A program made the translations under genes and the position numbers. From Pseudomonas fluorescens Q2-87 (GTDB lineage Bacteria > Pseudomonadota > Gammaproteobacteria > Pseudomonadales > Pseudomonadaceae): a DNA stretch of 64,000 nt. Below, piece after piece: positions 1 to 63,115 of this stretch. Positions within the stretch are counted from its first letter, which is position 1; each line of letters starts with the position of its first letter. The stretch spans positions 4,964,556-5,028,555 of the forward strand of contig NZ_CM001558.1 of NCBI RefSeq assembly GCF_000281895.1, given 5' to 3'. The notes under the pieces are model-generated. The model did no database searches. It saw only the letters and a program-made list of their open reading frames with translations, and was not told where the DNA came from.

Positions 1-45
1 CCACCTGCCCCATCTAAGACCCATACTCCATTGCGCAGGTGCCCC

Positions 46-2460
46 ATGAGCGACCAGCACTCTACTGAAGCCACGAACGATTACGCTGACTCCGAACACA
101 TCGAACACACCTCCTCCGGCACCGGCCTGGCCCTGCCCGGCCAGAACCTGCCGGACAAGGTCTACATCATCCCCATCCACAACCGCCCGTTCTTCCCGGC
201 CCAAGTGCTGCCGGTTATCGTCAATGAAGAACCGTGGGCCGAAACCCTGGAACTGGTGGCCAAGTCCGAACACCATTCCCTGGCGCTGTTTTTCATGGAC
301 ACGCCCCAGGAAGACCCGCGTCATTTCGATACCTCGGCGCTGCCGCTGTACGGCACGCTGGTCAAGGTCCATCACGCCAGCCGCGAAGGCGGCAAGCTGC
401 AATTCGTCGCCCAGGGCCTGACCCGCGTGCGGATCCGCACCTGGCTCAAGCACCATCGCCCTCCGTACCTGGTGGAAGTCGAATACCCGCACCAGCCGAG
501 CGAACCGACCGATGAGGTCAAGGCCTACGGCATGGCGTTGATCAATGCGATCAAGGAACTGCTGCCACTCAATCCGCTGTACAGCGAAGAGCTGAAGAAC
601 TACCTCAACCGCTTCAGCCCCAACGATCCATCGCCGCTGACCGATTTTGCCGCTGCACTCACTTCTGCCACCGGCAGCGAGTTGCAGGAAGTGCTCGACT
701 GCGTCCCGATGCTCAAGCGCATGGAAAAAGTCCTGCCGATGCTGCGTAAGGAAGTCGAAGTCGCGCGCCTGCAAAAAGAGATTTCTGCCGAGGTCAACAA
801 CAAGATTGGCGAACATCAGCGCCAATTCTTCCTCAAGGAGCAACTCAAGGTCATCCAGCAGGAACTGGGGCTGACCAAGGACGACCGCAGCGCCGATCTC
901 GAACAGTTCGAGCAGCGCCTGGAAGGCAAGGTGCTGTCGTCCCAGGCGCAGAAACGCATCGAAGAGGAAATGAACAAGCTGTCGATCCTGGAAACCGGCT
1001 CGCCGGAATACGCCGTCACCCGCAATTATCTGGATTGGGCGACCTCGGTGCCGTGGGGCGTGTATGGCCAGGACAAACTTGACCTCAAGCATGCGCGCAA
1101 GGTGCTCGATCAACACCACGCCGGGTTGGACGACATCAAGGACCGTATCCTCGAATTCCTTGCCGTCGGCGCCTATAAAGGCGAGATCAGCGGCTCCATC
1201 GTGCTGCTGGTGGGGCCGTCGGGCGTGGGCAAGACCAGCGTCGGCAAGTCCATCGCCGAATCCCTGGGGCGGCCGTTCTACCGATTCAGCGTCGGCGGCA
1301 TGCGCGACGAAGCCGAGATCAAGGGCCACCGGCGCACCTACATCGGCGCGCAGCCGGGCAAGTTGGTGCAGGCGCTCAAGGATGTCGAGGTCATGAACCC
1401 GGTGATCATGCTCGACGAGATCGACAAGATGGGCCAGAGCTACCAGGGCGACCCGGCTTCGGCACTGCTGGAGACCCTCGACCCGGAACAGAACGTCGAG
1501 TTTCTCGATCATTACCTGGACCTGCGCCTGGATCTGTCGAAAGTGCTCTTCGTCTGCACCGCCAACACCCTGGACTCTATTCCCGGCCCATTGCTGGACC
1601 GGATGGAAGTGATTCGCCTGTCGGGCTATATCACCGAAGAAAAAGTCGCCATCGCCAAGCGTCACTTATGGCCCAAGCAACTGGCCAAGGCCGGCGTGTC
1701 CAAAGGCAGCCTGACCATCAACGACAGCGCCCTCAAGGCACTGATCGACGGTTACGCCCGTGAGGCCGGCGTGCGACAACTGGAGAAACAGCTCGGCAAA
1801 CTGGTGCGCAAGGCGGTGATGAAGCTGATCGACGAGCCGAAAGCGGTGATCAAGCTTGGCCCCAAGGACCTCGAGGCTTCCCTGGGCAAACCGGTGTTCC
1901 GCAACGAGCAAGTGCTGTCCGGCGTCGGGGTGATTACCGGCCTGGCCTGGACCAGCATGGGTGGCGCGACCTTGCCGATCGAAGCGACACGCATCCACAC
2001 CCTCAACCGCGGCTTCAAGCTGACCGGCCAACTGGGCGAAGTGATGAAGGAGTCGGCGGAGATCGCCCACAGCTACGTCAGCTCGCACCTGAAGCAGTTT
2101 GGCGGCGACCCGAAGTTCTTTGACGAGGCGTTCGTTCACCTTCACGTACCGGAAGGCGCCACGCCCAAGGACGGCCCGAGCGCCGGGGTCACCATGGCCA
2201 GCGCCTTGCTGTCCCTTGCGCGCAACCAGCCGCCGAAAAAAGGCGTGGCCATGACCGGCGAACTGACCCTTACCGGGCATGTCCTGCCAATTGGTGGGGT
2301 GCGGGAGAAAGTCATCGCGGCGCGGCGGCAGAAAATCAACGAACTGATCCTGCCGGAAGCCAACCGGGGCAACTTCGAAGAACTGCCGGACTACCTCAAG
2401 GAAGGCGTGACGGTGCATTTTGCCAAGCGCTTTGCGGATGTGGCCAAGGTGTTGTTCTGA
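46..2460 (+). CDS. ATP-dependent Lon-type protease (second Lon, AsrA-like)
   Basis: This is a full-length Lon (endopeptidase La), a cytoplasmic hexameric protease that unfolds and degrades misfolded or regulatory proteins. The N-terminal substrate-binding domain fills roughly residues 45-240. Walker A GPSGVGKTS lies near residue 390 and Walker B VIMLDEIDKMG near 450. The proteolytic dyad is Ser about 712 (PKDGPSAGV) and Lys about 755 (EKVIAARRQ). The ATG at 46 is chosen over a TTG at 31 because it gives the MSDQ start. Of the Lon-like proteins in Pseudomonas it most resembles PA0779 (AsrA) rather than the lon beside clpX, a judgement supported by the peptidase-inhibitor gene next door. The promoter lies outside the window. 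Confidence 0.95.
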   Translation: MSDQHSTEATNDYADSEHIEHTSSGTGLALPGQNLPDKVYIIPIHNRPFFPAQVLPVIVNEEPWAETLELVAKSEHHSLALFFMDTPQEDPRHFDTSALPLYGTLVKVHHASREGGKLQFVAQGLTRVRIRTWLKHHRPPYLVEVEYPHQPSEPTDEVKAYGMALINAIKELLPLNPLYSEELKNYLNRFSPNDPSPLTDFAAALTSATGSELQEVLDCVPMLKRMEKVLPMLRKEVEVARLQKEISAEVNNKIGEHQRQFFLKEQLKVIQQELGLTKDDRSADLEQFEQRLEGKVLSSQAQKRIEEEMNKLSILETGSPEYAVTRNYLDWATSVPWGVYGQDKLDLKHARKVLDQHHAGLDDIKDRILEFLAVGAYKGEISGSIVLLVGPSGVGKTSVGKSIAESLGRPFYRFSVGGMRDEAEIKGHRRTYIGAQPGKLVQALKDVEVMNPVIMLDEIDKMGQSYQGDPASALLETLDPEQNVEFLDHYLDLRLDLSKVLFVCTANTLDSIPGPLLDRMEVIRLSGYITEEKVAIAKRHLWPKQLAKAGVSKGSLTINDSALKALIDGYAREAGVRQLEKQLGKLVRKAVMKLIDEPKAVIKLGPKDLEASLGKPVFRNEQVLSGVGVITGLAWTSMGGATLPIEATRIHTLNRGFKLTGQLGEVMKESAEIAHSYVSSHLKQFGGDPKFFDEAFVHLHVPEGATPKDGPSAGVTMASALLSLARNQPPKKGVAMTGELTLTGHVLPIGGVREKVIAARRQKINELILPEANRGNFEELPDYLKEGVTVHFAKRFADVAKVLF

Positions 2461-48537: not shown

Positions 48538-48893
48538 GGTTGTTTCCTCGTGAGTACCGGGTTCAGCAGCCGCGGTAATACGAGGTGGTGGGATGGTAAG
48601 CGTGAATTGGGGTTGTGGCTAGTGTGGGCGGGTTTGGATAGAGGATCCTAACGGCTGTCGTTTCAGGATAAAGGTAAAGGAAACGGTGCCGATCTATTGC
48701 AAAATAAATAAATGCGCCCCCTCTTCTCTGCTCAGGGAGCCGTTTTATTCAGCTTTTCTCGCTCTGAAGTGAAGAGCAAGGGTCAACCAGCAATTTTCAA
48801 GCGCTTCTCCTCCCACCCAAAAGCCAATGAAAGGGGGTTGGAGACTAGCCTAAATTTGTATAGGATCGAAATATAATTGCAAAGGAGTGAATT
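48538..48893. other. Divergent intergenic region before the SIR2 gene
   Basis: About 355 bases in which GC-rich sequence turns AT-rich. It contains an 18-base match to 16S rRNA (48564-48581) and, near the right end, likely promoter elements for the SIR2 gene: TTGGAG, 17 bases, TAGGAT, and a separate TATAAT at 48870-48875. AAGGAG lies seven bases before the SIR2 ATG. No open frame of interest. Confidence 0.5.
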
Positions 48894-50393
48894 ATGTTCG
48901 AGCTTCCTGAAGGACCAACCCGCCAGCAGTTACTGGCCCACATTTCAGAATCAAGCATATATGGAAATTTATGCCTGTTCATAGGCGCGGGATTTTCTAA
49001 AGAACTAGTTGGTGAAGAGGCTCTTTCATGGGGGCAATTATTGCAGAAGGCTACAACAGAGCTTGAAATAGAATTTGATTTTGACAATCCCAATTTAATT
49101 GGCACGGGCTATCCGGAGATAGCCTCTTCTATTTGCCGAAAACATTCAGAAGCAAAAGGACTATCGATTACAAGCAGCATGTCTTCCTTGAAAGAAAAGG
49201 TTGCCGAGCTGACTTGCTGGTACCCAACGGATCAGAAAAAAACCGTATACGCTGACCATATTAGCAAATTGTCTCCCGCCTGGGTGATAACTACTAACTA
49301 CGATTTAGTCATAGAGAGTTTGCTGCCGGGCGAGTCCATTACAATCGGGCCGGATCAGCCACTGGTTTTCCCCAAGGGACGCACACCCGTCTATCATCTT
49401 CATGGCGTACGTACGTACCCGGATAAGATTGTACTTTGCCGTGAAGACTATACCGCACTGTTCAGGCCTAATGAATATCGCCAGATAAAGCTAGCTCTGA
49501 CACTAAAGGAATCTACAACAGTACTTTTAGGTTATGGACTAGGTGATGACAATGTTTTAACTGCTTTTGATTGGTCAAAAAATGTATTTGACGAAGTTAT
49601 CAAGAGCTACCCCAATGAGACTATTCAGATAGTTCGGGTTAACACTCCAAAAAGTGATCCTTACCGAGGATATAACGGAGCTACAATTTTAGAGGTTTCC
49701 GGCTTGGCAGGATTCTTCGAAGAGCTAATGCCAATTGTCGTCCAACGGAGACAATTTCAAGATGAATTAATTAGGAAGCTACATAGCATTCGCGATCTGA
49801 TGGTTAAATCTCCGCAAGACGCCGTAATTAATTTTATTGATGAGAAAAATTTCAGAGAAACAACGCTTTCATTTGTCAACAACAGCAATTATTCACCAAT
49901 AATCGATGGCTTTATACCTTTTTTTGAGAAGTGCATTGATAAAACTTTCGAAAGATCAGCTGGGTACGGCGCTTTTCAAGGCTACGCGCAGGGCTTGACT
50001 ATAGTACTTGATATTTTGGAAACCTATGGCGACGCCCATATGCCTCCGGCGCTATTTCATAAACTAGCACACGCGTTGAACAGACAAGCTCCATTCATTG
50101 GAAAAAAGAGCGGTCAGTCCCATGCAGCAGGTAAGACCTGGGATTACAGAAAAAACAATCTATCGAAACGGCAGTTACGAGAGCTAAAAATTTATGCACA
50201 AAGCAAAGGCTGGCATCATGTTGTTTTATTACTGAATCCCCTACTTACATCAGTAGAGGTGCTCGTCGCTCCCCCACTACCACCTCTATTATCGGGGGAA
50301 AGCGGCTCGATTACTGCACTTCCTAGTATAGCCTCACTCCAGGAGCCTCTTATTCCATTCACTCCGCCGCCTGCGAAATCAACATCCTCGTAA
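48894..50393 (+). CDS. SIR2-like (SIR2_2) domain protein, probable NADase of a defence module
   Basis: A 499-residue protein with an N-terminal SIR2-fold domain: GAGFS at residues 31-35 (NAD phosphate loop), TTNYD at 133-137, HLHG at 168-171 with the catalytic-type His170, and GYGLGDDN at 213-220. Proteins with this domain in phage-defence loci (DSR, Thoeris ThsA, SIR2-pAgo) deplete NAD+ on infection. Residues 290-450 are a helical domain of unknown type and the last 40 residues are Pro/Ser-rich. Codon use is AT-rich compared with the core. The next gene, 96 bases on, encodes a DUF2806-type protein, which I infer is its partner. Confidence 0.85.
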   Translation: MFELPEGPTRQQLLAHISESSIYGNLCLFIGAGFSKELVGEEALSWGQLLQKATTELEIEFDFDNPNLIGTGYPEIASSICRKHSEAKGLSITSSMSSLKEKVAELTCWYPTDQKKTVYADHISKLSPAWVITTNYDLVIESLLPGESITIGPDQPLVFPKGRTPVYHLHGVRTYPDKIVLCREDYTALFRPNEYRQIKLALTLKESTTVLLGYGLGDDNVLTAFDWSKNVFDEVIKSYPNETIQIVRVNTPKSDPYRGYNGATILEVSGLAGFFEELMPIVVQRRQFQDELIRKLHSIRDLMVKSPQDAVINFIDEKNFRETTLSFVNNSNYSPIIDGFIPFFEKCIDKTFERSAGYGAFQGYAQGLTIVLDILETYGDAHMPPALFHKLAHALNRQAPFIGKKSGQSHAAGKTWDYRKNNLSKRQLRELKIYAQSKGWHHVVLLLNPLLTSVEVLVAPPLPPLLSGESGSITALPSIASLQEPLIPFTPPPAKSTSS

Positions 50394-50489
50394 TCTCAGG
50401 CGCCTGTAGCACTAACTATCAAGGCGATATAAACCTAGACCTATCGAAATAACCATAAAAACATAGCAACTATATCTAAAGGATGCGAC

Positions 50490-51494
50490 ATGGAAATCCC
50501 GGGTGAAAAATTAATCATTCGAATATGGGAAACACTTTCAGAAAAAGGCATCGGTGCAATCTTTAGGCCGAGCCTAGTACGTCGCGAAGGGGTAGCGAAC
50601 ATCGAGGTTCGACGAGCTGAGATGTTGGTTTTGGCTCAAGCTGAACGCGAAGTGAAAGAAATCCAAAGTGGACATAAGGATCTATCTGATTTCTCTTTAA
50701 AAATAAGCTTCATGGAAAAGAAGGAAAATAATGATCTTCTAGTTCGTACGGAACCCACTCTAAATCTTGAAACGCTGGCGCACGCATCCGAAAAACAACA
50801 AATCATAAATGCCCTGAGAAAAGAGATTAATGTTACCAAAGCAGTTTTGCATGCTGAACAAGCCGTAATCGATGATGGACAAGAACCGCCCCTGAGCAAA
50901 GTTGACACGGATTGGTTATTTAGGTGGCGCGACTACGTGGGAGATGTTTCCTTAAATGACATGCAAGAGCTTTGGGGCAGACTGTTAGTCAGCGAGATTA
51001 AATCACCTGGGAGATACTCACTTCGGAGCCTCGACTTCTTAAGAAACTTATCTCCAACCGAGGCAAAACTAATTGAGCGGCTATCAAGCCTAGTGGTGGA
51101 GGGTTTAATCTGGGAAGGAGGAACGGTAGAGCTTATTACTTTTGATGAGCTGCTTGAGCTAGAGAACCTTGGAGTTCTGTCCGGTGTGAGCGCAGGCGGG
51201 CTAGTAAATAATACATCTACGCAAAAATCAAATGATGGATGGGTGCGCATTTTAAGAGCATCCAAGAAGTGTTTAGTCGCCAGGCATACTGAAAATAAAA
51301 TCATCAAACTACGCGGATACCGAGCAACAGCCCTTGGAGAGCAAATAATATCTGTAGGCCGATTGGACGACAACATCGAATATCTTCATAAAATTGGTAC
51401 GCACTTGGTTACGGAAGGGTTCAATGTAATGATTGCCGATTACACTGAGGATGGCACATCGACCTTTTATACAAATGGCGTAAAAATCGGGTAG
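50490..51494 (+). CDS. DUF2806 / TIGR03899-type protein
   Basis: A 334-residue protein. Residues 142-200 carry the family pattern WLFRWRDYVGDVSLNDMQEL then LWGRLLVSE, PGRYSLRSLDFLRNLSP and a helix, which I recognise as DUF2806. The N-terminal 130 residues are helical and charged. The C-terminal 130 form a mixed alpha/beta domain with no known motif. AAGGA lies a few bases before the ATG (spacing is slightly short). Family members appear in mobile and defence DNA, but their biochemical role is not established. Its position right after an SIR2 NADase-like gene suggests a sensor, regulator or inhibitor, by inference only. Confidence 0.7.
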   Translation: MEIPGEKLIIRIWETLSEKGIGAIFRPSLVRREGVANIEVRRAEMLVLAQAEREVKEIQSGHKDLSDFSLKISFMEKKENNDLLVRTEPTLNLETLAHASEKQQIINALRKEINVTKAVLHAEQAVIDDGQEPPLSKVDTDWLFRWRDYVGDVSLNDMQELWGRLLVSEIKSPGRYSLRSLDFLRNLSPTEAKLIERLSSLVVEGLIWEGGTVELITFDELLELENLGVLSGVSAGGLVNNTSTQKSNDGWVRILRASKKCLVARHTENKIIKLRGYRATALGEQIISVGRLDDNIEYLHKIGTHLVTEGFNVMIADYTEDGTSTFYTNGVKIG

Positions 51495-51608
51495 ACACCA
51501 TATAAAATTATAATAGAATCATCACCTCGCAAAAAAGACAAACTTACTGTCCAATAATAGACCCACCCGCCTCCCACTTAATTTAAACATCTTAATGAAG
51601 AGCAAATC

Positions 51609-52228
51609 ATGCGCCCAACAATCGGAATATCTCATATTAGCCAGATAGAGACCGCAATATTTGACGATTTCGCTTCAGAAATATCCCATCCGGCGTTAGT
51701 TTTTGATATTGAGACCAGACCAGCTCCGGCCCCCTATGCTGCAATAGAGTGGCTAGTCCCAACAACTATAATACTATTTATTGGAAAAGCATACTTCGAG
51801 GAATTTTTAAAGGAAATGGGAAAAGACCATTACCACATACTAAAAAATCCATACAACGATTAACCAAGAGAACATTAAACCAACCGAGGATCGAACCAAC
51901 GATCCTGAGTACACAGGGCAAATCCGATAAGAAAAATCCATACTCCATGGCTTTTTCTGTTGTAGCAGAAGGAAAAGACAACCACACCCTGAAGCTTTTA
52001 TTAGAAAAAAGTAATGGGAACTCTAATTACGACAAAACCATAGAAAAATTTATTGACTTTATCCGCGACTATCATTTAACTGAAAACTCGGCAGCTGAAA
52101 GCGAGATTACAAAAAGCGAATCGTCGAATGGAATAATTCTAGTTCATTTAAATTCAGAGACAAATAAAATTGAATGGCTCGATCCTCTACCAGCCGATGT
52201 CCGAGCCAGGTTAAACAAAAAAGAATGA
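51609..52228 (+). pseudogene. Small membrane protein gene with apparent one-base frameshift
   Basis: Two frames together read as one protein of about 206 residues. Frame 1 (51609-51863) gives MRPTIGISHISQIETAIF, a membrane segment WLVPTTIILFIGKAYF and ends after GKDHYHILKN. The frame used from 51842 on continues IQRLTKRTLNQPRIEPTIL to RARLNKKE at 52228. The switch falls in the A6 run at 51842-51847; seven A would restore a single frame. The cause may be a real mutation, phase variation, programmed slippage or a sequencing error. AAGAG-type ribosome site precedes the ATG. It follows the DUF2806 gene in the same direction and could be a third component. Confidence 0.65.
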
Positions 52229-52381
52229 CTTTTTTAATGAGCACATAAACCCTCAATAAATATGCTTTTTATTTTCGCTACTCCCTTACAACATTGAGCA
52301 GTGCAATTATGCATTAATTAAAAGTAGAAGGGGATTTAAAACTTCCTTTCTTAATCATTAAAACCTTTGGTGTAGGCCTGC

Positions 52382-53151
52382 TCAGCGGGATGCTTTACGC
52401 CGAGCCATAAAATCGATCAACTCTCTTACGACTGAGTCCGCCTGAGCATCCGAGCCTAGCTCTACTGCCCTAATCTCCTTACTTCTACCCCCTCATATGT
52501 CAATGGGACTAAACGCTTGTCCGCCTCTGCAGGCAACTCAGCGTGGTAAGTATCTCCGTCAACTTCAACAACAAAAGTTAGCCCTTTATAAATCACTACA
52601 AAATCAGGCTCGAGTCGATTATAAGTATTTCCTATCCGAACAAATACTGGAAGAGGTGCTACTGGAAGCCGAGCTTTAGTTAGTGCCTTGAAAAGCGTGA
52701 CTTCTGCTTGTGACCGAAAGAGTAGCCCCTGATGTTGCTGTGAGGCAATATTATCGCTACGCACTCTACCTTGGTTTGTTACCCCATCCCCCTTCACGTA
52801 ACGCATAGCCTCTTCACGCCACCCATATACCGCCTCCCCTACCCTAGGGGCAATAATTACTCCTTCTGAAGAGTCATTCGGAGTTGTGGAATAGAAAGGA
52901 ATAATCACCTCAGCTATAGAGGCTTCTGTTGCCTTACGCTCGTCGTCTGACATTGCATAGAAAAGTTGTACGGGTAGCGAAATTAAAAACTGCCAATAAT
53001 TAATCCCAAAATCCGAGCCTGATAGATCAACTTTGCAATCACCCGCGACGACCACGGCGATTGCGCGTGCGTCGCCCCGCATTTTCAGAGCATCGACCGC
53101 CGCAGCTGCTAGGTCTTCTGCGTTGAACGGGCTAAATACCATACCTTCCAC
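52382..53151 (-). pseudogene. PD-(D/E)XK-like nuclease gene with a C-terminal frameshift
   Basis: The uninterrupted part (53151 to 52462, 229 codons) has an unrecognised N-terminal domain and a C-terminal nuclease-like core: RSQAEVTLFKAL, then LEPDFVV and FVVEVDGDTYH, giving the E...D...ExD pattern of DUF559/Vsr-like nucleases. It stops after EGVEVRRLGQ, but with one extra base near 52480 the frame would continue through IRAVELGSDAQADSVVRELI to a stop at 52382, which is just the final helix such nucleases normally have. The gene is therefore probably damaged or misread at that point. It is AT-rich and may belong to a defence locus. Confidence 0.65.
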
Positions 53152-53573
53152 CTTATAGGAGCACGGCTGGACCCTGCCGAGCTCCAGCTATTGTTGAGCT
53201 TGTATGATTGCTTATATCGGTCAAAAAGCACAAGTACTCGATAGCGGAACCAGTCCAGAATTAGTTTTCGGGCGGCTGCAACTCGTCATGCCACAGCAAT
53301 CAACTAAGGATCTTGATCATTAACGGTTGAACTTAACAGCCAAGTTTGATAGTGGCACGACAGCCACTGCATATCGTGGAGCTTAACATCTGGAGCAATT
53401 CTTCATACATTAGGCAAAACAATAAGCTAGCAACGAGCCCCCCACACACTCAAATTTAACCACAACAACAAAACTAACAACCTTAGCAAACAAAAACTAG
53501 AACAGATTATTTTCAACCAAAGAAACAAATTCGATGCTTTTTAGGTTTCACATCCGAACCCTCGCGATCCGAC
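53152..53573. other. Intergenic region with one possible 39-codon frame
   Basis: About 420 bases, AT-rich in its right half. The only frame worth recording is 53204-53323 on the plus strand (MIAYIGQKAQVLDSGTSPEL onwards, 39 codons), without a convincing ribosome site; it may be a remnant or chance. No repeat or terminator is clear. Confidence 0.35.
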
Positions 53574-54608
53574 TTAAACAGTTTTGAACGATTTGAATAG
53601 CCTTTCAGGTACTAAGTACAGCTTCCCACGCGTCCGTGAAATTGCAACATAAAGTTTGTTTTTGGTCTGTGGAGGGAGTTCACCAAGCGAAAGTTTTTCG
53701 TAGTTCTTCCAATGAGTAGCACCCAGCACAACGCACACATCGTTATAGTGATCTAGCCCCTTACTTGCGCCCCAGTTGTTAGACACGCATCCGTATTTGT
53801 AATGCTCTTGATAGAACAGCTTTACGACGCTGGCGTCCGCGTGCACGGCATTAGCATCCGCTTGATTGGCCAGAGATATGATGTCCGTTTCATAGGTATA
53901 CTGTGACCGCATATCAATCCCCAGATTCGCACGGATAAAATCGCACACGGTCACGCCGCATCTCCAACTTCGACTCAATGTTTCTTTGTCGATGATGATA
54001 CCCGCCTTTTGAAAATGTCTTTCGTACTTTCCGATTTCAGCGTGTAGAGAGCTGTTCACATTTCCATCACGGCTAGTGTCGAAGGTATGCTGATAAAAAT
54101 CTCCCACAAACAGCATTTCAATCTTGGCTTTCGCCAACGCCATCAGCAGATTGAAGTCATGGCCTGCTAGGTCTTGAATCTCGTCGACATAAAATTCATC
54201 GTAAAAGCGCTCCATTCGCGCTATCACGTCAGGAATTGCCCCTGCGGACTCAACAAGCTTTGCTAAGCGGCCGTGATATAAGCTTCCGCTTTTACTAGCG
54301 TAGTAAGCCATATCATCGCGCTTGAGTTTCAATGTACGGGGGGGTGGTGTTCGAAAACTGATCCCTCGAGTTTCCAAGTGCACCTGCAGCAACGGGCGAT
54401 AGCAGAAGCTATGGAGGAATGTGAAATAACTTAGGAGATTTATGTTTTTGGGGACATGACCGAACCGTTTGATGATGCTATTACGCAAGTGCCGATAGTT
54501 GTTGTCCGTGTAGGTGACAATTAGTGCTCGTTTCTCTAAGCTCAGGCGGTGCACCAGCAAGGTTGTCTTACCTGATCCTGCTACAGCGAACATCACTCGT
54601 TTATCCAT
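53574..54608 (-). CDS. Small UvrD-like helicase, GajB-like
   Basis: A 344-residue SF1A helicase with every core motif: I VAGSGKTT (9-16), II VDEIQD (141-146), III FVGDFYQ (167-173), IV SRSWRC (212-217), V SKGLDH (282-287) and VI YVAISRTRGKLYL (320-332). It is much smaller than GajB (about 490) and PcrA/UvrD because the 1B and 2B insertions are nearly absent. It overlaps the end of the OLD nuclease gene by 16 bases, the arrangement of class 2 OLD or Gabija systems. I infer that it works with that nuclease in phage DNA sensing or degradation. Confidence 0.82.
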   Translation of the reverse strand: MDKRVMFAVAGSGKTTLLVHRLSLEKRALIVTYTDNNYRHLRNSIIKRFGHVPKNINLLSYFTFLHSFCYRPLLQVHLETRGISFRTPPPRTLKLKRDDMAYYASKSGSLYHGRLAKLVESAGAIPDVIARMERFYDEFYVDEIQDLAGHDFNLLMALAKAKIEMLFVGDFYQHTFDTSRDGNVNSSLHAEIGKYERHFQKAGIIIDKETLSRSWRCGVTVCDFIRANLGIDMRSQYTYETDIISLANQADANAVHADASVVKLFYQEHYKYGCVSNNWGASKGLDHYNDVCVVLGATHWKNYEKLSLGELPPQTKNKLYVAISRTRGKLYLVPERLFKSFKTV

Positions 54609-56155
54609 TTGATTGCCTCCACAATATAGGCTGGAACGGTGAGCTCACCGGGCTTGCCCTTGAGCAGCTCAAATGCAGCTTCTGCCTTGTTGGCTAGCAT
54701 GTATTCCAAGGGCGAAAGGGTTTTTCGTCCAGGCCCGAAAACAGTCTTGCAGGTTTCCACGTTATCGTTGTGCAATCCTATTTCGAAGGTTGAACGTTCA
54801 TCGTCTCTATCGGCAAAGACTTTGGCATTGTCCGAAGCGAAGTCGACGTAGTTTTCTACACAGTTTTTCTGATAGCTCTTGTCGTTGTCTCGTATGGCTG
54901 CGACTCGAACTCCAAGCAGGTTAGCGAGCTCCATGTACCTTTTGAAACTGGTGCCGCCAATAGAAATTATGTGGACATCATCGACATGCGGTAGACGCCC
55001 TTTTGTACATTGCTTATAGAACTCCTCCACAAGGATGAATTCGGCATCACCTTCAACCAAGATCACCTTCTTCGAAAGCGCGAACTCTAGAACATTATTG
55101 TCCGGAGCCTTCATGAAAAATTCTGCGGTCTCGGTTGATAGAGCTTTAAGTGAGCCAGCAACTGCGTTCGGGCCGATCAAAAGGGCATGCCGAAGATCAA
55201 GTCTTGAGCAAATATGGCTGCTGTGGGTTGCTATGAAAAGCTGTGTGCTTTCGTTCTCCGCTAGCTTGGCGACGAGTGCTTTCATGGATGAATGGCTGAG
55301 ATGGTTCTCAGGCTCCTCTAATAGCATTACATCTAAGCCTCCTTGTTTGTGCTTGCTCAGCGCAAACTCGGTCTTGATGAAACACTGCCGTCCCTTCCCG
55401 TGGTTCTCAAGCGGAATATTGTCTTCAGTAATAATTAGGTCGCTTTCCAAATTCGACCGGACGCTAGTACGTACGTCAAACTGATACGCAGGAAGGTCAG
55501 CGTTAAGCGCTGCCAGATGCTGTCCTGTAAACGCATGCTTACCTTGGCGATACAGATTTTCAAGCTTATAGCGGTCTTCCACGGGGGCGTTGAAAGCGTA
55601 CACAGCTCGGGTGTATTCACGAGATGCGTAGTCGCCATCGATACGTGAACCATCTAGCATCATGTGTTTAATGGGTCGGTTGAATGCTGCGTAGGGCCTG
55701 CCGGCGAACGTTTCAAACCGCACCGCGTAATATTCGAAAGGGAAGTTTGGTTGAGCGTCAGCCAAGATCACTTGTACAGCCTCGCCATACTCGACCATAA
55801 CCGCAAGGATCATGCGCAGACCGTCAGTCTGGCGCTGCTGGGCATTATTGGTTCCATAGAGGCCTTCGTCATCACCTTCCTCTAGGAAAACGTCGACTAT
55901 CAACTCAGGTAGGTTCTCCAGGCTCTTCTCCCCAGCAAGGAAGGTGTTCACCGAGTCCTTATTGAGCAGTGTTTCTGCCCCCAGAGCTTCAATGCGGTTG
56001 CGGCTCCCGCCTAGCGCGAGATCTAGAGCGAGCAAAATGCTGCTTTTTCCTGCCTCATTGTTGCCAATCAGAACATTCTTCCCAGGCTCGAAATCGAGTG
56101 TGAGTGTTTTGAATTTTTTAAAGTTCTGAATTACCACTTTCCTTATGGTGTGCAT
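54593..56155 (-). CDS. OLD-family ATPase/TOPRIM nuclease, GajA-like
   Basis: A 520-residue protein. The ABC-type ATPase has Walker A GNNEAGKSS (31-39), a signature-like GKGRQ (253-257), Walker B LLEEPENHL (278-286) and the switch His in ATHSSH (309-314). A C-terminal TOPRIM domain has LVEGDAE (366-372) and the acidic RDNDKS (422-427). OLD nucleases of class 2 are followed by a UvrD-like helicase, as here. In Gabija, GajA nicks DNA when nucleotide levels drop during phage replication and GajB supports it. Assignment to Gabija proper, rather than a related class 2 OLD pair, needs a profile search. Confidence 0.85.
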   Translation of the reverse strand: MHTIRKVVIQNFKKFKTLTLDFEPGKNVLIGNNEAGKSSILLALDLALGGSRNRIEALGAETLLNKDSVNTFLAGEKSLENLPELIVDVFLEEGDDEGLYGTNNAQQRQTDGLRMILAVMVEYGEAVQVILADAQPNFPFEYYAVRFETFAGRPYAAFNRPIKHMMLDGSRIDGDYASREYTRAVYAFNAPVEDRYKLENLYRQGKHAFTGQHLAALNADLPAYQFDVRTSVRSNLESDLIITEDNIPLENHGKGRQCFIKTEFALSKHKQGGLDVMLLEEPENHLSHSSMKALVAKLAENESTQLFIATHSSHICSRLDLRHALLIGPNAVAGSLKALSTETAEFFMKAPDNNVLEFALSKKVILVEGDAEFILVEEFYKQCTKGRLPHVDDVHIISIGGTSFKRYMELANLLGVRVAAIRDNDKSYQKNCVENYVDFASDNAKVFADRDDERSTFEIGLHNDNVETCKTVFGPGRKTLSPLEYMLANKAEAAFELLKGKPGELTVPAYIVEAIKWINE

Positions 56156-56333
56156 GCCGCTGAACTCCTATTACCAACGCGCCGAATGATCGACTGAGGT
56201 ATAGCAGCAAAACGCCACTGCTGCGTTATAGAAATTGTCATACCCCTGCTAGCAGATGAAAGCTCAGATGTATGAAACAGCATAGCTATTCGAGACCTAG
56301 GATTTATGGGAGCGTTAAGCGCCCTTCAAGCAC

Positions 56334-56366
56334 AAAAAAAAGGCCTTGCCGGGCAAGACCTTTTTT
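56334..56366 (-). terminator. Terminator of DUF6124 gene, copy 1
   Basis: AAAAGGCCTTGCC / GGGCAAGACCTTTT with A and T runs on both sides, so it could act in both directions. A related hairpin follows copy 2 at 63064. Confidence 0.8.
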
Positions 56367-56392
56367 AATCCGGGCGGCACGTAGCTGCAGCC

Positions 56393-60702: not shown

Positions 60703-61194
60703 CTAGCCGCCCTGAGTCTTGATGATCATGGAGGATCCGGAGTGTTGCGGACCGATGCCACCGCTGACCTGCGCATCCAGACTGACGATGACATCACCGG
60801 CGTGGTAGGTCGGCAACTTGCCTAGCGTGAACTCGCGGACGGCCCATCCCACAGGGATGACTGCGGCGGGCATGAACTTACCTGCCGCTGCGGCGAAAAC
60901 ACCGCTGGTGAGGTTGGCGATACTCATTCGTTGGGCGTTGAGTAAATCCCCCTGCTGCCGGGTCAAGGGTTTGGAGATCCCGACCATCATTTGGCAGGGT
61001 AAATCCTTGGCAAGCATCTTGTCGTAGAGCTCTACCACCCGGTTGCTCACTTCATAGTGGGCGGCTTTAGCTTCACCAAAATGCAGCTCCCTGAGGCTAC
61101 CCCGTTCATCGGCTGACAAGGTGAAGCGCGATACGCTGAAGATAATTCCATGGCTGCTGGAAAACTGTCCGTTTTCAAATTTCAATGCTCGCAT
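60703..61194 (-). CDS. Hypothetical protein, 163 aa
   Basis: Not recognised. Residues 1-30 look beta-rich, 40-90 helical (KAAHYEVSNRVVELYDKML), and 95-125 form a glycine/alanine-rich hydrophobic stretch (GVFAAAAGKFMPAAVIPVGW) that could contact a membrane. It shares an operon with the small membrane protein downstream. Confidence 0.6.
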   Translation of the reverse strand: MRALKFENGQFSSSHGIIFSVSRFTLSADERGSLRELHFGEAKAAHYEVSNRVVELYDKMLAKDLPCQMMVGISKPLTRQQGDLLNAQRMSIANLTSGVFAAAAGKFMPAAVIPVGWAVREFTLGKLPTYHAGDVIVSLDAQVSGGIGPQHSGSSMIIKTQGG

Positions 61195-61636
61195 CCTTAT
61201 CGAGTCTGGAAAGACGGGGAGTTTGTCTTAGCTGATGGGCTTTTCGCAATGGACGTCGGCACCGCCTCACAGGCCTGCTCCTATGCCATCCGGCGCAAGA
61301 TGACAGCCGCCCGCCCAGATCGCCGCCCCAGGTCTCATTGAACCCCTCAAAAATGGGCTGCTGAGCTCCCCTTTACGGCTGAATGACATTTTCCCCAGCG
61401 TGGCCTACCTCACCTCAACAATTTGCGTAAACAAACACCTTCAACTAGGTTGAGATCAAGAGAAATCGTTCGCTTCGAACACTAGGTGACACACATACCT
61501 GAAAACCGCCTTGATCGGTTGTTATGAATCAGTAGTTCCGTGGCACTGCCCATCAGGATTAATAAAGCCTTATTTACAAAGGCAGGGCCATGTAACTTGA
61601 TTTTATGGAATTTTTCACAACAAGGAGTAGTTAAGT
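61195..61636. other. Intergenic region before the beta-trefoil gene
   Basis: About 440 bases. Frames here are short and lack ribosome sites. The last 200 bases are AT-rich and probably hold the promoter of the next gene, but I see no strong consensus. Confidence 0.4.
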
Positions 61637-63037
61637 ATGACCTGGGGAAGAATGAAAGTACGTAATGCCTGTCCGTTTCCGGTAACCTTCTACGCACTTG
61701 CAGGCCCTACGCTTGAACTGGCTGCCAACGATACACAAACGGCTCATGCTTGTTTAATTTGGTTTTCTACAAGGGTTAAAGGCCCCGGAGATGCTATCAA
61801 TCTTAGCCAGTGGGAACAGTTCTCTGGTGATTATGTACAACAACTCGATGATTTGGGATTCGACTCCGCGGACTGGGAGGAAGGAGGAAGCGGAGCGGCT
61901 GCCGGTTCAATTTTGGGCTGGGCCGTATCACAGCTATCGGGAATATTTAAGGTAAAGAACACCAACCCCGACGCCGACGCTTATTTTGGTGCAAAAAAAG
62001 AAGGGGTCTACGGCAGCTCGGACTTGGTTGTTTACGCGACGCTCGACCCAATATACAAGTTGGATCATAGCCATAAAATCTGGTATCTACATCTTGAGCA
62101 TGACAAGGGTCAGATCACGCCTCCTTACAACTCTGAGCCGCTGTATGTCAAGCCGAATCTGTCTGCCTATGCGGACACTATGTTTGTCCGCGCCTGCAAT
62201 TCATCTGGGTACTTGTCCGCGACTCCAGACAAAGAAGGCGTTGAGATTTTGGATCACTCCGAGCCCTACAACCCATTGGAATATCCTTCCTATTGGTCTA
62301 TTCAGCCAGAACACGGCAACGATACTAGAGAAATAAAGATACTGAATGTCTATGCGCAAAAATGGCTGACAGATTACTCCTCAAGCAACAACAAAGTCGG
62401 TTTGTATCCGTTAGGGTATGCGGACTATGAGGACCAACATTGGGACATTACGGAAATAAGTAAGAATCCGGAGGTGGTCACGATAAAAAACAGTGCCACC
62501 GGCCTGAACCTTTTTGCCAACAACAATGCTGGCATTGGCGTCTATAATCCAGACTATCCCGACCAACATTTCACTATACAGACGTTCACTGTCAACGCAG
62601 AAAACATTCCTGAGGGGGTGACCTTTAGGATTATGAATGCGCAAACAGGAAAATATATTACCATCAGCGACGCAGGAAAAGCCTATATCGCGGACACCGA
62701 CCAAAACAACCAACTATTTTATATAAAAAACCTTGATGGGGATCTGAAAATATGCAGCGTCGCGTATAACTCATACCTCACTTTTTATTGGAACGACAAC
62801 GACAGTGAATTGGCCACCTGTTCAATGGAATACAATGCTTACGAGCATAGCCCCGACCAGGTATGGGAATTCAGCACCGACCCTGAACTCGCCGGCGTGT
62901 ATATAAAGAACAAACTGGGCATCCAAAAAGGCATGCCTAACCTTTATTACAATACCAATGGCGTGTTCGGCTTATACTCTGGTAGCTTTCCAGATCAGCT
63001 TTGGGTCTTTCAGCTAGAAACAACCGATCCCTCTTAA
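61637..63037 (+). CDS. Beta-trefoil (ricin-like repeat) protein
   Basis: A 466-residue protein with no signal peptide. The C-terminal half carries repeats spaced 43-52 residues apart with a QxW/QxF core: DQHWDI near 267, DQHFTI near 310, NQLFYI near 356, DQVWEF near 408 and DQLWVF near 455. Each is preceded by a hydrophobic IKN/LYNxNG type strand. This is the beta-trefoil lectin pattern. The N-terminal 150 residues (VRNACPFPVTFYALAGP onwards) are unrecognised. AAGGAG lies nine bases before the ATG. The lack of a signal suggests intracellular use, lysis or a non-classical route; a toxin or lectin role is inference. Confidence 0.7.
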   Translation: MTWGRMKVRNACPFPVTFYALAGPTLELAANDTQTAHACLIWFSTRVKGPGDAINLSQWEQFSGDYVQQLDDLGFDSADWEEGGSGAAAGSILGWAVSQLSGIFKVKNTNPDADAYFGAKKEGVYGSSDLVVYATLDPIYKLDHSHKIWYLHLEHDKGQITPPYNSEPLYVKPNLSAYADTMFVRACNSSGYLSATPDKEGVEILDHSEPYNPLEYPSYWSIQPEHGNDTREIKILNVYAQKWLTDYSSSNNKVGLYPLGYADYEDQHWDITEISKNPEVVTIKNSATGLNLFANNNAGIGVYNPDYPDQHFTIQTFTVNAENIPEGVTFRIMNAQTGKYITISDAGKAYIADTDQNNQLFYIKNLDGDLKICSVAYNSYLTFYWNDNDSELATCSMEYNAYEHSPDQVWEFSTDPELAGVYIKNKLGIQKGMPNLYYNTNGVFGLYSGSFPDQLWVFQLETTDPS

Positions 63038-63063
63038 AGAAGCAAAACAGAGGGATTTATTTG

Positions 63064-63093
63064 AAAAAAGGTCTTGTTAAGCAAGACCTTTTT
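63064..63093. terminator. Bidirectional terminator
   Basis: AAAAAAGGTCTTG-TTAA-GCAAGACCTTTTT between the beta-trefoil gene and the convergent DUF6124 copy 2. Confidence 0.85.
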
Positions 63094-63115
63094 ATTTTAC
63101 AACGGCAGCTGAGCG

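Follow-up and report, generated by a model that had tools for sequence, protein, structure and literature searches.

A SIR2 gene and a DUF2806 gene adjacent in a Pseudomonas fluorescens defence cassette are probably two independent single-gene anti-phage genes

The DNA analyzed here, referred to as the window, is a stretch of 64,000 nucleotides of Pseudomonas fluorescens Q2-87 (G000:C1:4964556-5028555, from the 6.37 Mb single-contig genome G000). It carries a gene for a SIR2-domain protein and, 96 bases further on the same strand, a gene for a DUF2806 protein, followed after another 114 bases by a third gene in the same direction. An earlier note, made from the sequence alone, had proposed that the three form a new defence module, in which a SIR2-type NADase is controlled by the DUF2806 protein and possibly tethered at the membrane. 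We found that relatives of SIR2 and DUF2806 occur singly and share a prophage slot, and the two genes are probably independent single-gene anti-phage genes rather than one system, stacked with Gabija in a swappable cassette (Table 1).

Table 1 Features of the window (positions are those of the whole stretch unless given as residues; aa, amino acids; ORF, open reading frame).
Feature	Position	Strand	Basis
Chromosomal defence cassette	48726..56390	.	Homology breakpoints vs G010 and G035
SIR2_2-domain protein, 499 aa	48894..50393	+	ORF; Pfam SIR2_2 E 2.2e-17, above cut-off
SIR2 protein, NADase-like domain	residues ~7-288		
SIR2 protein, helical C-terminal part	residues ~271-451		
SIR2 protein, variable Pro/Ala-rich tail	residues ~452-499		
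DUF2806 protein, 334 aa	50490..51494	+	ORF; Pfam DUF2806 E 2.2e-22, above cut-off
Split gene, N-terminal part, 84 aa, one hydrophobic segment	51609..51863	+	ORF, relatives' profile
Split gene, C-terminal part within overlapping other-frame ORF, 159 aa	51749..52228	+	ORF, relatives' profile
229-aa protein, no family assigned	52462..53151	-	ORF in the same cassette, strand opposite to SIR2/DUF2806
GajB-type UvrD-like helicase of Gabija	53574..54608	-	PADLOC GajB E 2.1e-47
GajA (ATPase + OLD-like TOPRIM) of Gabija	54593..56155	-	PADLOC GajA E 1.6e-106; Pfam OLD-like_TOPRIM E 7e-17

The SIR2 and DUF2806 genes are AT-rich against a GC-rich core, as had been noted (G+C of 0.437 and 0.439, respectively, vs ~0.60 across most of the window). 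DNA homology with the related genome G010 ends at 48725 and restarts at 56391; in place of the cassette, G010 has small genes over ~1.0 kb. Homology with G035 ends at the same base and restarts at 56160, with a PARIS-like pair in between (AriA, E 1.6e-28; AriB, E 1e-9). The stretch from 48726 to 56159-56390 is therefore an exchangeable defence cassette that holds SIR2, DUF2806, the split third gene, the 229-aa protein, and Gabija.

The SIR2 fold read from the motifs was borne out: GAGFS (residues 31-35), TTNYD (133-137), HLHG (168-171), and GYGLGDDN (213-220) are all present, and the AlphaFold2 (AF2) model matches ThsA and DSR2. The catalytic Asn and His, N135 and H170, align with N133 and H171 of DSR2 and are invariant across 34 aligned SIR2 sequences. 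The best PADLOC match is PDC-S25 (E 2.7e-20), which covers the SIR2 region only (residues 27-222 of 499) and not the full length; all PADLOC matches are partial in this way, and the one to Dsr1 (E 1.7e-7) is confined to residues 20-222. DSR2 is a protein of ~1000 aa with a large C-terminal sensor, whereas the window protein has ~450 aa plus a variable tail, and an identity with DSR2 was rejected because the protein is too short and its sequence match is limited to the SIR2 region. In the model, ThsA of Thoeris is matched only over residues ~4-293, and the C-terminal part is predicted to be helical; Thoeris was rejected because no TIR-domain (ThsB) neighbour was found when ten surrounding ORFs were scanned with Pfam. 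The closest relatives by sequence are P0082-P0086 (77-90%). Among them, P0083-P0086 have Pro/Ala-rich tails of varying length after about residue 450; the tail is missing from the more distantly related sequences aligned.

The second gene is also of the type that the earlier note had named, with a DUF2806 (PF10987) profile score of 80.4 bits against a cut-off of 24.5. Its AF2 model (mean pLDDT, predicted local distance difference test, of 78) has long N-terminal helices, a helical core, in which the Pfam match lies (residues 110-203), and an alpha/beta C-terminal part. The protein has no PADLOC match, and assignment to TIGR03899 was rejected (74.4 bits, under the curated cut-off of 155.65). 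A weak core stretch is common with Abi_alpha (PF14337; Pfam E 0.018 at residues 156-201, 15.5 bits vs a cut-off of 29), and an hhalign comparison with only four Abi_alpha sequences ends in the same region (E 0.0026, probability 11%); membership of this family was rejected, the scores being below curated cut-offs and the N- and C-terminal parts unmatched.

Relatives of DUF2806 were also seen in 304 plasmid records, such as the Escherichia coli IncX4 plasmid L283. Distant DUF2806 proteins are common on conjugative plasmids, where the listed enterobacterial ones have ~30% identity over ~40% of the query, and a DUF2806 gene disrupted by an mcr-1.1 cassette is described in a passage of PMC8221240. 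A second DUF2806 group (L050, L114-L121, L125) adjoins genes that, by eye, are of P2-like phage type (ogr-like, portal, terminase, replication); SIR2 was not found there.

To establish whether the two families belong together, their flanks, up to 10 kb on each side and often less, were examined at 125 DUF2806 loci, 80 from genome contigs (the best 80 of 96) and 45 from viral contigs (profile search). A SIR2 relative was found in the flank of none of them (0/125), nor was DUF2806 found in the flank of any of six viral SIR2 loci. A SIR2 match is present in 17 of 298 Pseudomonas genomes, with a close match only in G000 and G116, and DUF2806 at E<=1e-20 in 7 of 398; G000 is the only genome in both lists. 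Because SIR2 and DUF2806 are not adjacent in other genomes, which is the test that the earlier note itself had set, the claim of one NADase module under DUF2806 control fails. Comparison of the SIR2 and DUF2806 profiles revealed no resemblance, a result that is neutral as to partnership.

The solitary relatives have a common address in lambda-like Pseudomonas prophages. Of 78 strong DUF2806 loci (the window included and some sites counted twice), 14 have the gene directly beside a CI-type repressor gene, with which it is convergent. The close SIR2 relative in G116 occupies the same repressor-side position, and so do those of the viral loci L145 and L146 as well as, in G016, a distant SIR2 whose neighbouring repressor is diverged (33% identity). 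The slot is anchored by the repressor gene and, on the other side, by a conserved early gene (L156:5233-8370 is an example), and 76 distinct slots were left after 11 duplicates had been dropped. Of these, five, of 283-287 bp, are empty; DUF2806 fills 12 and SIR2 four, in each case without a further cargo ORF of at least 120 aa, and the two never occur together.

What else fills the slot was assessed in the 64 slots of a repressor scan, obtained from the best 80 of 182 places after removal of 14 without a second anchor and two duplicates (60 rows, plus four dropped duplicates, L159, L190, L205, and L222, standing for repressor-anchored slots). Five of the 64 are empty and 59 filled, and in 42 of the filled ones the representative of the cargo cluster has a PADLOC match at E<=1e-5, although several of these matches are to candidate families or over partial length, not to proven systems. 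They comprise Septu components (9), AbiC-like (7), NACHT/PDC-S60-like (5), PDC-S21 (4), PDC-S20 (4), PDC-M34B-like (3), and PDC-S28 (2), with one each of CBASS, DRT5, Lamassu, NsnA/GmrSD-like, NsnB-like, PDC-M36A-like, PDC-S49-like, and a weak PDC-S31. The other filled slots hold DUF2806 (3), SIR2 (1), cargo without a match (12), or unscanned cargo (1). The cargo ORFs of at least 80 aa (cargo strand only) fell into 38 clusters, and PADLOC and Pfam scans covered representatives of 30 of these, the DUF2806 and SIR2 clusters being represented by the window proteins; unscanned cargo consists of two short-ORF clusters, both L189 singletons, the L199 middle gene, and the L212 second gene. For the relatives, the slot thus has both marks of a prophage defence hotspot, being filled elsewhere by known defence genes and existing in an empty form. 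As a control, 287 ORFs of at least 100 aa on either side of the slot were grouped into 35 clusters, whose representatives matched 54 PADLOC families at E<=1e-5; the 25 families listed are all DNA methyltransferase models, each with 2 of the 35 members. PADLOC matches thus occur in the flanks as well, and this control of enrichment is only partial. The 12 repressor-anchored slots with PADLOC-negative cargo, among them a HIT-domain gene pair, a DUF4062 protein, and a peptidase C92-like protein, may hold further new defence genes.

The cargo ends close to the repressor match (median 17 bp, range -15 to 102) and starts at a median of 338 bp (157 to 606) from the next anchor. The last 285 bp before the early-gene anchor align in all 76 slots, even where there is no cargo, and most of this sequence is conserved; by eye, it contains a small early gene that has the same orientation as the anchor (L023 is an example). 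The 110 bp closest to the cargo bear a repeated element, GTTGAT/ATCAAC, found 1.95 times per sequence vs 0.08 in shuffles, and the same element is found 2.96 times per sequence in the CI-cro intergenic region vs 0.14 in shuffles. The strict palindrome ATCAAC-N5-GTTGAT occurs in 30 of the 76 slots and in 74 of the 76 CI-cro regions, with a spacing of 5 in every case (2-12 permitted). Judging from these sites, the slot and the CI-cro region would share an operator, as OL and OR do in lambda, and it is possible that the repressor controls the slot cargo. Near the window genes the palindrome was not found, only a single ATCAAC at 50378 and another at 52416.

According to the explanation that we favour, that of two independent genes, both families would be one-gene cargo of temperate phages, and their stacking in the window mere juxtaposition. 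In the SIR2 protein, the helical C-terminal part would receive a phage cue, after which the SIR2 domain would hydrolyze NAD+, by analogy with DSR2 and ThsA, and the infected cell would halt ahead of phage release, as in those systems. DUF2806 might act in the manner of abortive infection, sensing the phage attack and stopping the cell, a proposal made with far less assurance than that for SIR2. We give even chances to a joint and more specific version, in which DUF2806 would be an undescribed one-gene defence family, spread in lambda-like Pseudomonas phages by way of the slot, but also present on plasmids and in phages of other types; the slot would be wired to the prophage repressor through the shared operator element, its cargo following the lysogenic state, and the 450-aa SIR2 protein would be a compact one-gene NADase with a helical sensor.

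Several observations weigh against the explanation by two independent genes. The window pair lacks prophage slot flanks, and its DNA identity to the nearest prophage copies is only ~66-70%, so that a descent of the pair from the slot is no more than possible. Only the 64-slot subset is unbiased, counts with DUF2806- or SIR2-baited loci being biased, and in this subset both families are rare. Many of the flanks examined end at contig ends, where a partner could escape notice, and the context comparison did not include the closest SIR2 relatives, P0082-P0086. The defence activity of both proteins is something that we infer. Finally, SIR2 and DUF2806 are adjacent and co-directional, with no terminator-like site on the + strand in the 96 bases between them, and their co-transcription is possible.

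This last arrangement, together with the similar G+C of the two genes, is what speaks for a true two-gene system limited to a narrow Pseudomonas lineage, in which SIR2 would deplete NAD+ and DUF2806 would act as an infection sensor or as a brake on SIR2. We consider such a system unlikely, as relatives of the two genes stand singly, in one shared slot of related phages, and the two families were found together only in G000 among the genomes searched. A shade less likely still are prophage-type accessory genes with a non-defence role, in lysogeny control or host fitness, with SIR2 acting as a protein deacylase. The relatives lie beside a repressor, and cargo could be tied to lysogeny by the ATCAAC-N5-GTTGAT shared between slot and CI-cro region; the source-given names of some SIR2 relatives are NAD-dependent protein deacylase.

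The three-gene, membrane-tethered NADase module of the earlier note is highly improbable: the third gene does follow DUF2806 closely in the same direction, with one hydrophobic segment in its first part, but it is split over two frames, and its two other located relatives, in G269 (close to a contig end) and the viral locus L246, have no SIR2 or DUF2806 in the flanking DNA examined. A profile of its relatives matches the window in two overlapping frames, and because these relatives (P0203-P0207, n = 5) are continuous proteins of 199-220 aa that span both parts, the gene in the window is either frame-broken or read by slippage; mutation, sequencing error, and slippage would all fit. The protein database holds only the last 93 aa of the 51749-52228 ORF (P0202). 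What had been described as a small protein with one membrane helix was not confirmed as a single protein: the hydrophobic segment belongs to the 51609-51863 ORF (best 19-residue Kyte-Doolittle mean 1.44), and the ORF ending at 52228 has none (0.45); in the SIR2 protein, the start of the tail (residues 443-461) reaches a mean of 1.70, above that segment. A membrane tether supplied by this gene is unlikely. The family was found in 2 of 298 Pseudomonas genomes and at one viral locus, where it lies 7 bases after a PDC-M04A-type gene with an integrase-like gene adjacent (L246:6857-8615); the PDC-M04A-type gene may be its true partner.

In the literature searched, which left subscription journals mostly outside, no SIR2 + DUF2806 system was found by name, in agreement with the earlier note, nor any report of the Pseudomonas slot or of DUF2806 as defence. 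The term DUF2806 was not found in the main text of PMC9122126, neither such a slot nor DUF2806 in those of PMC12629846 and PMC13182921, and the text of PMC13092281, tables apart, does not have DUF2806 among the newly validated domains named in the sections consulted; the literature that uses the term is, by title, on resistant E. coli. Repressor-adjacent defence cargo in prophages is already known from BstA (PMC8585504) and RexABpp of P. putida (PMC12894663), as far as the sections consulted describe it. These and lambda rexAB resemble the slot cargo in lying beside a CI repressor, but they are located downstream of that repressor and co-transcribed with it, presumably or reportedly, whereas the Pseudomonas slot cargo is convergent with CI. 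The P2/P4 and Vibrio cI-integrase hotspots described in PMC9122126 also hold exchangeable defence systems, in other phages and other slots.

The analysis corrects a plausible but unsupported module call, in that neighbours in one defence cassette are not necessarily a system. The better lead is the anchored Pseudomonas prophage slot: most of its cargo matches defence systems, known or candidate, and the families that make up the rest, DUF2806 included, are direct candidates for new single-gene defences. The 450-aa SIR2 family, for its part, provides a small model of SIR2 NADase activation.

The Gabija-like pair reported beside these genes is a true Gabija, with GajA and GajB adjacent; it lies on the opposite strand, however, and the split gene and the 229-aa protein separate it from DUF2806. 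No match to the 229-aa protein was found in Pfam, PADLOC, or NCBIfam. An E-P-D...E-V-D pattern, seen by eye only, suggests a PD-(D/E)XK-type nuclease, and its gene might be an accessory of Gabija or further cargo. A further AT-rich stretch of the window, at 61000-63100, contains a 466-aa ORF (61637-63037).
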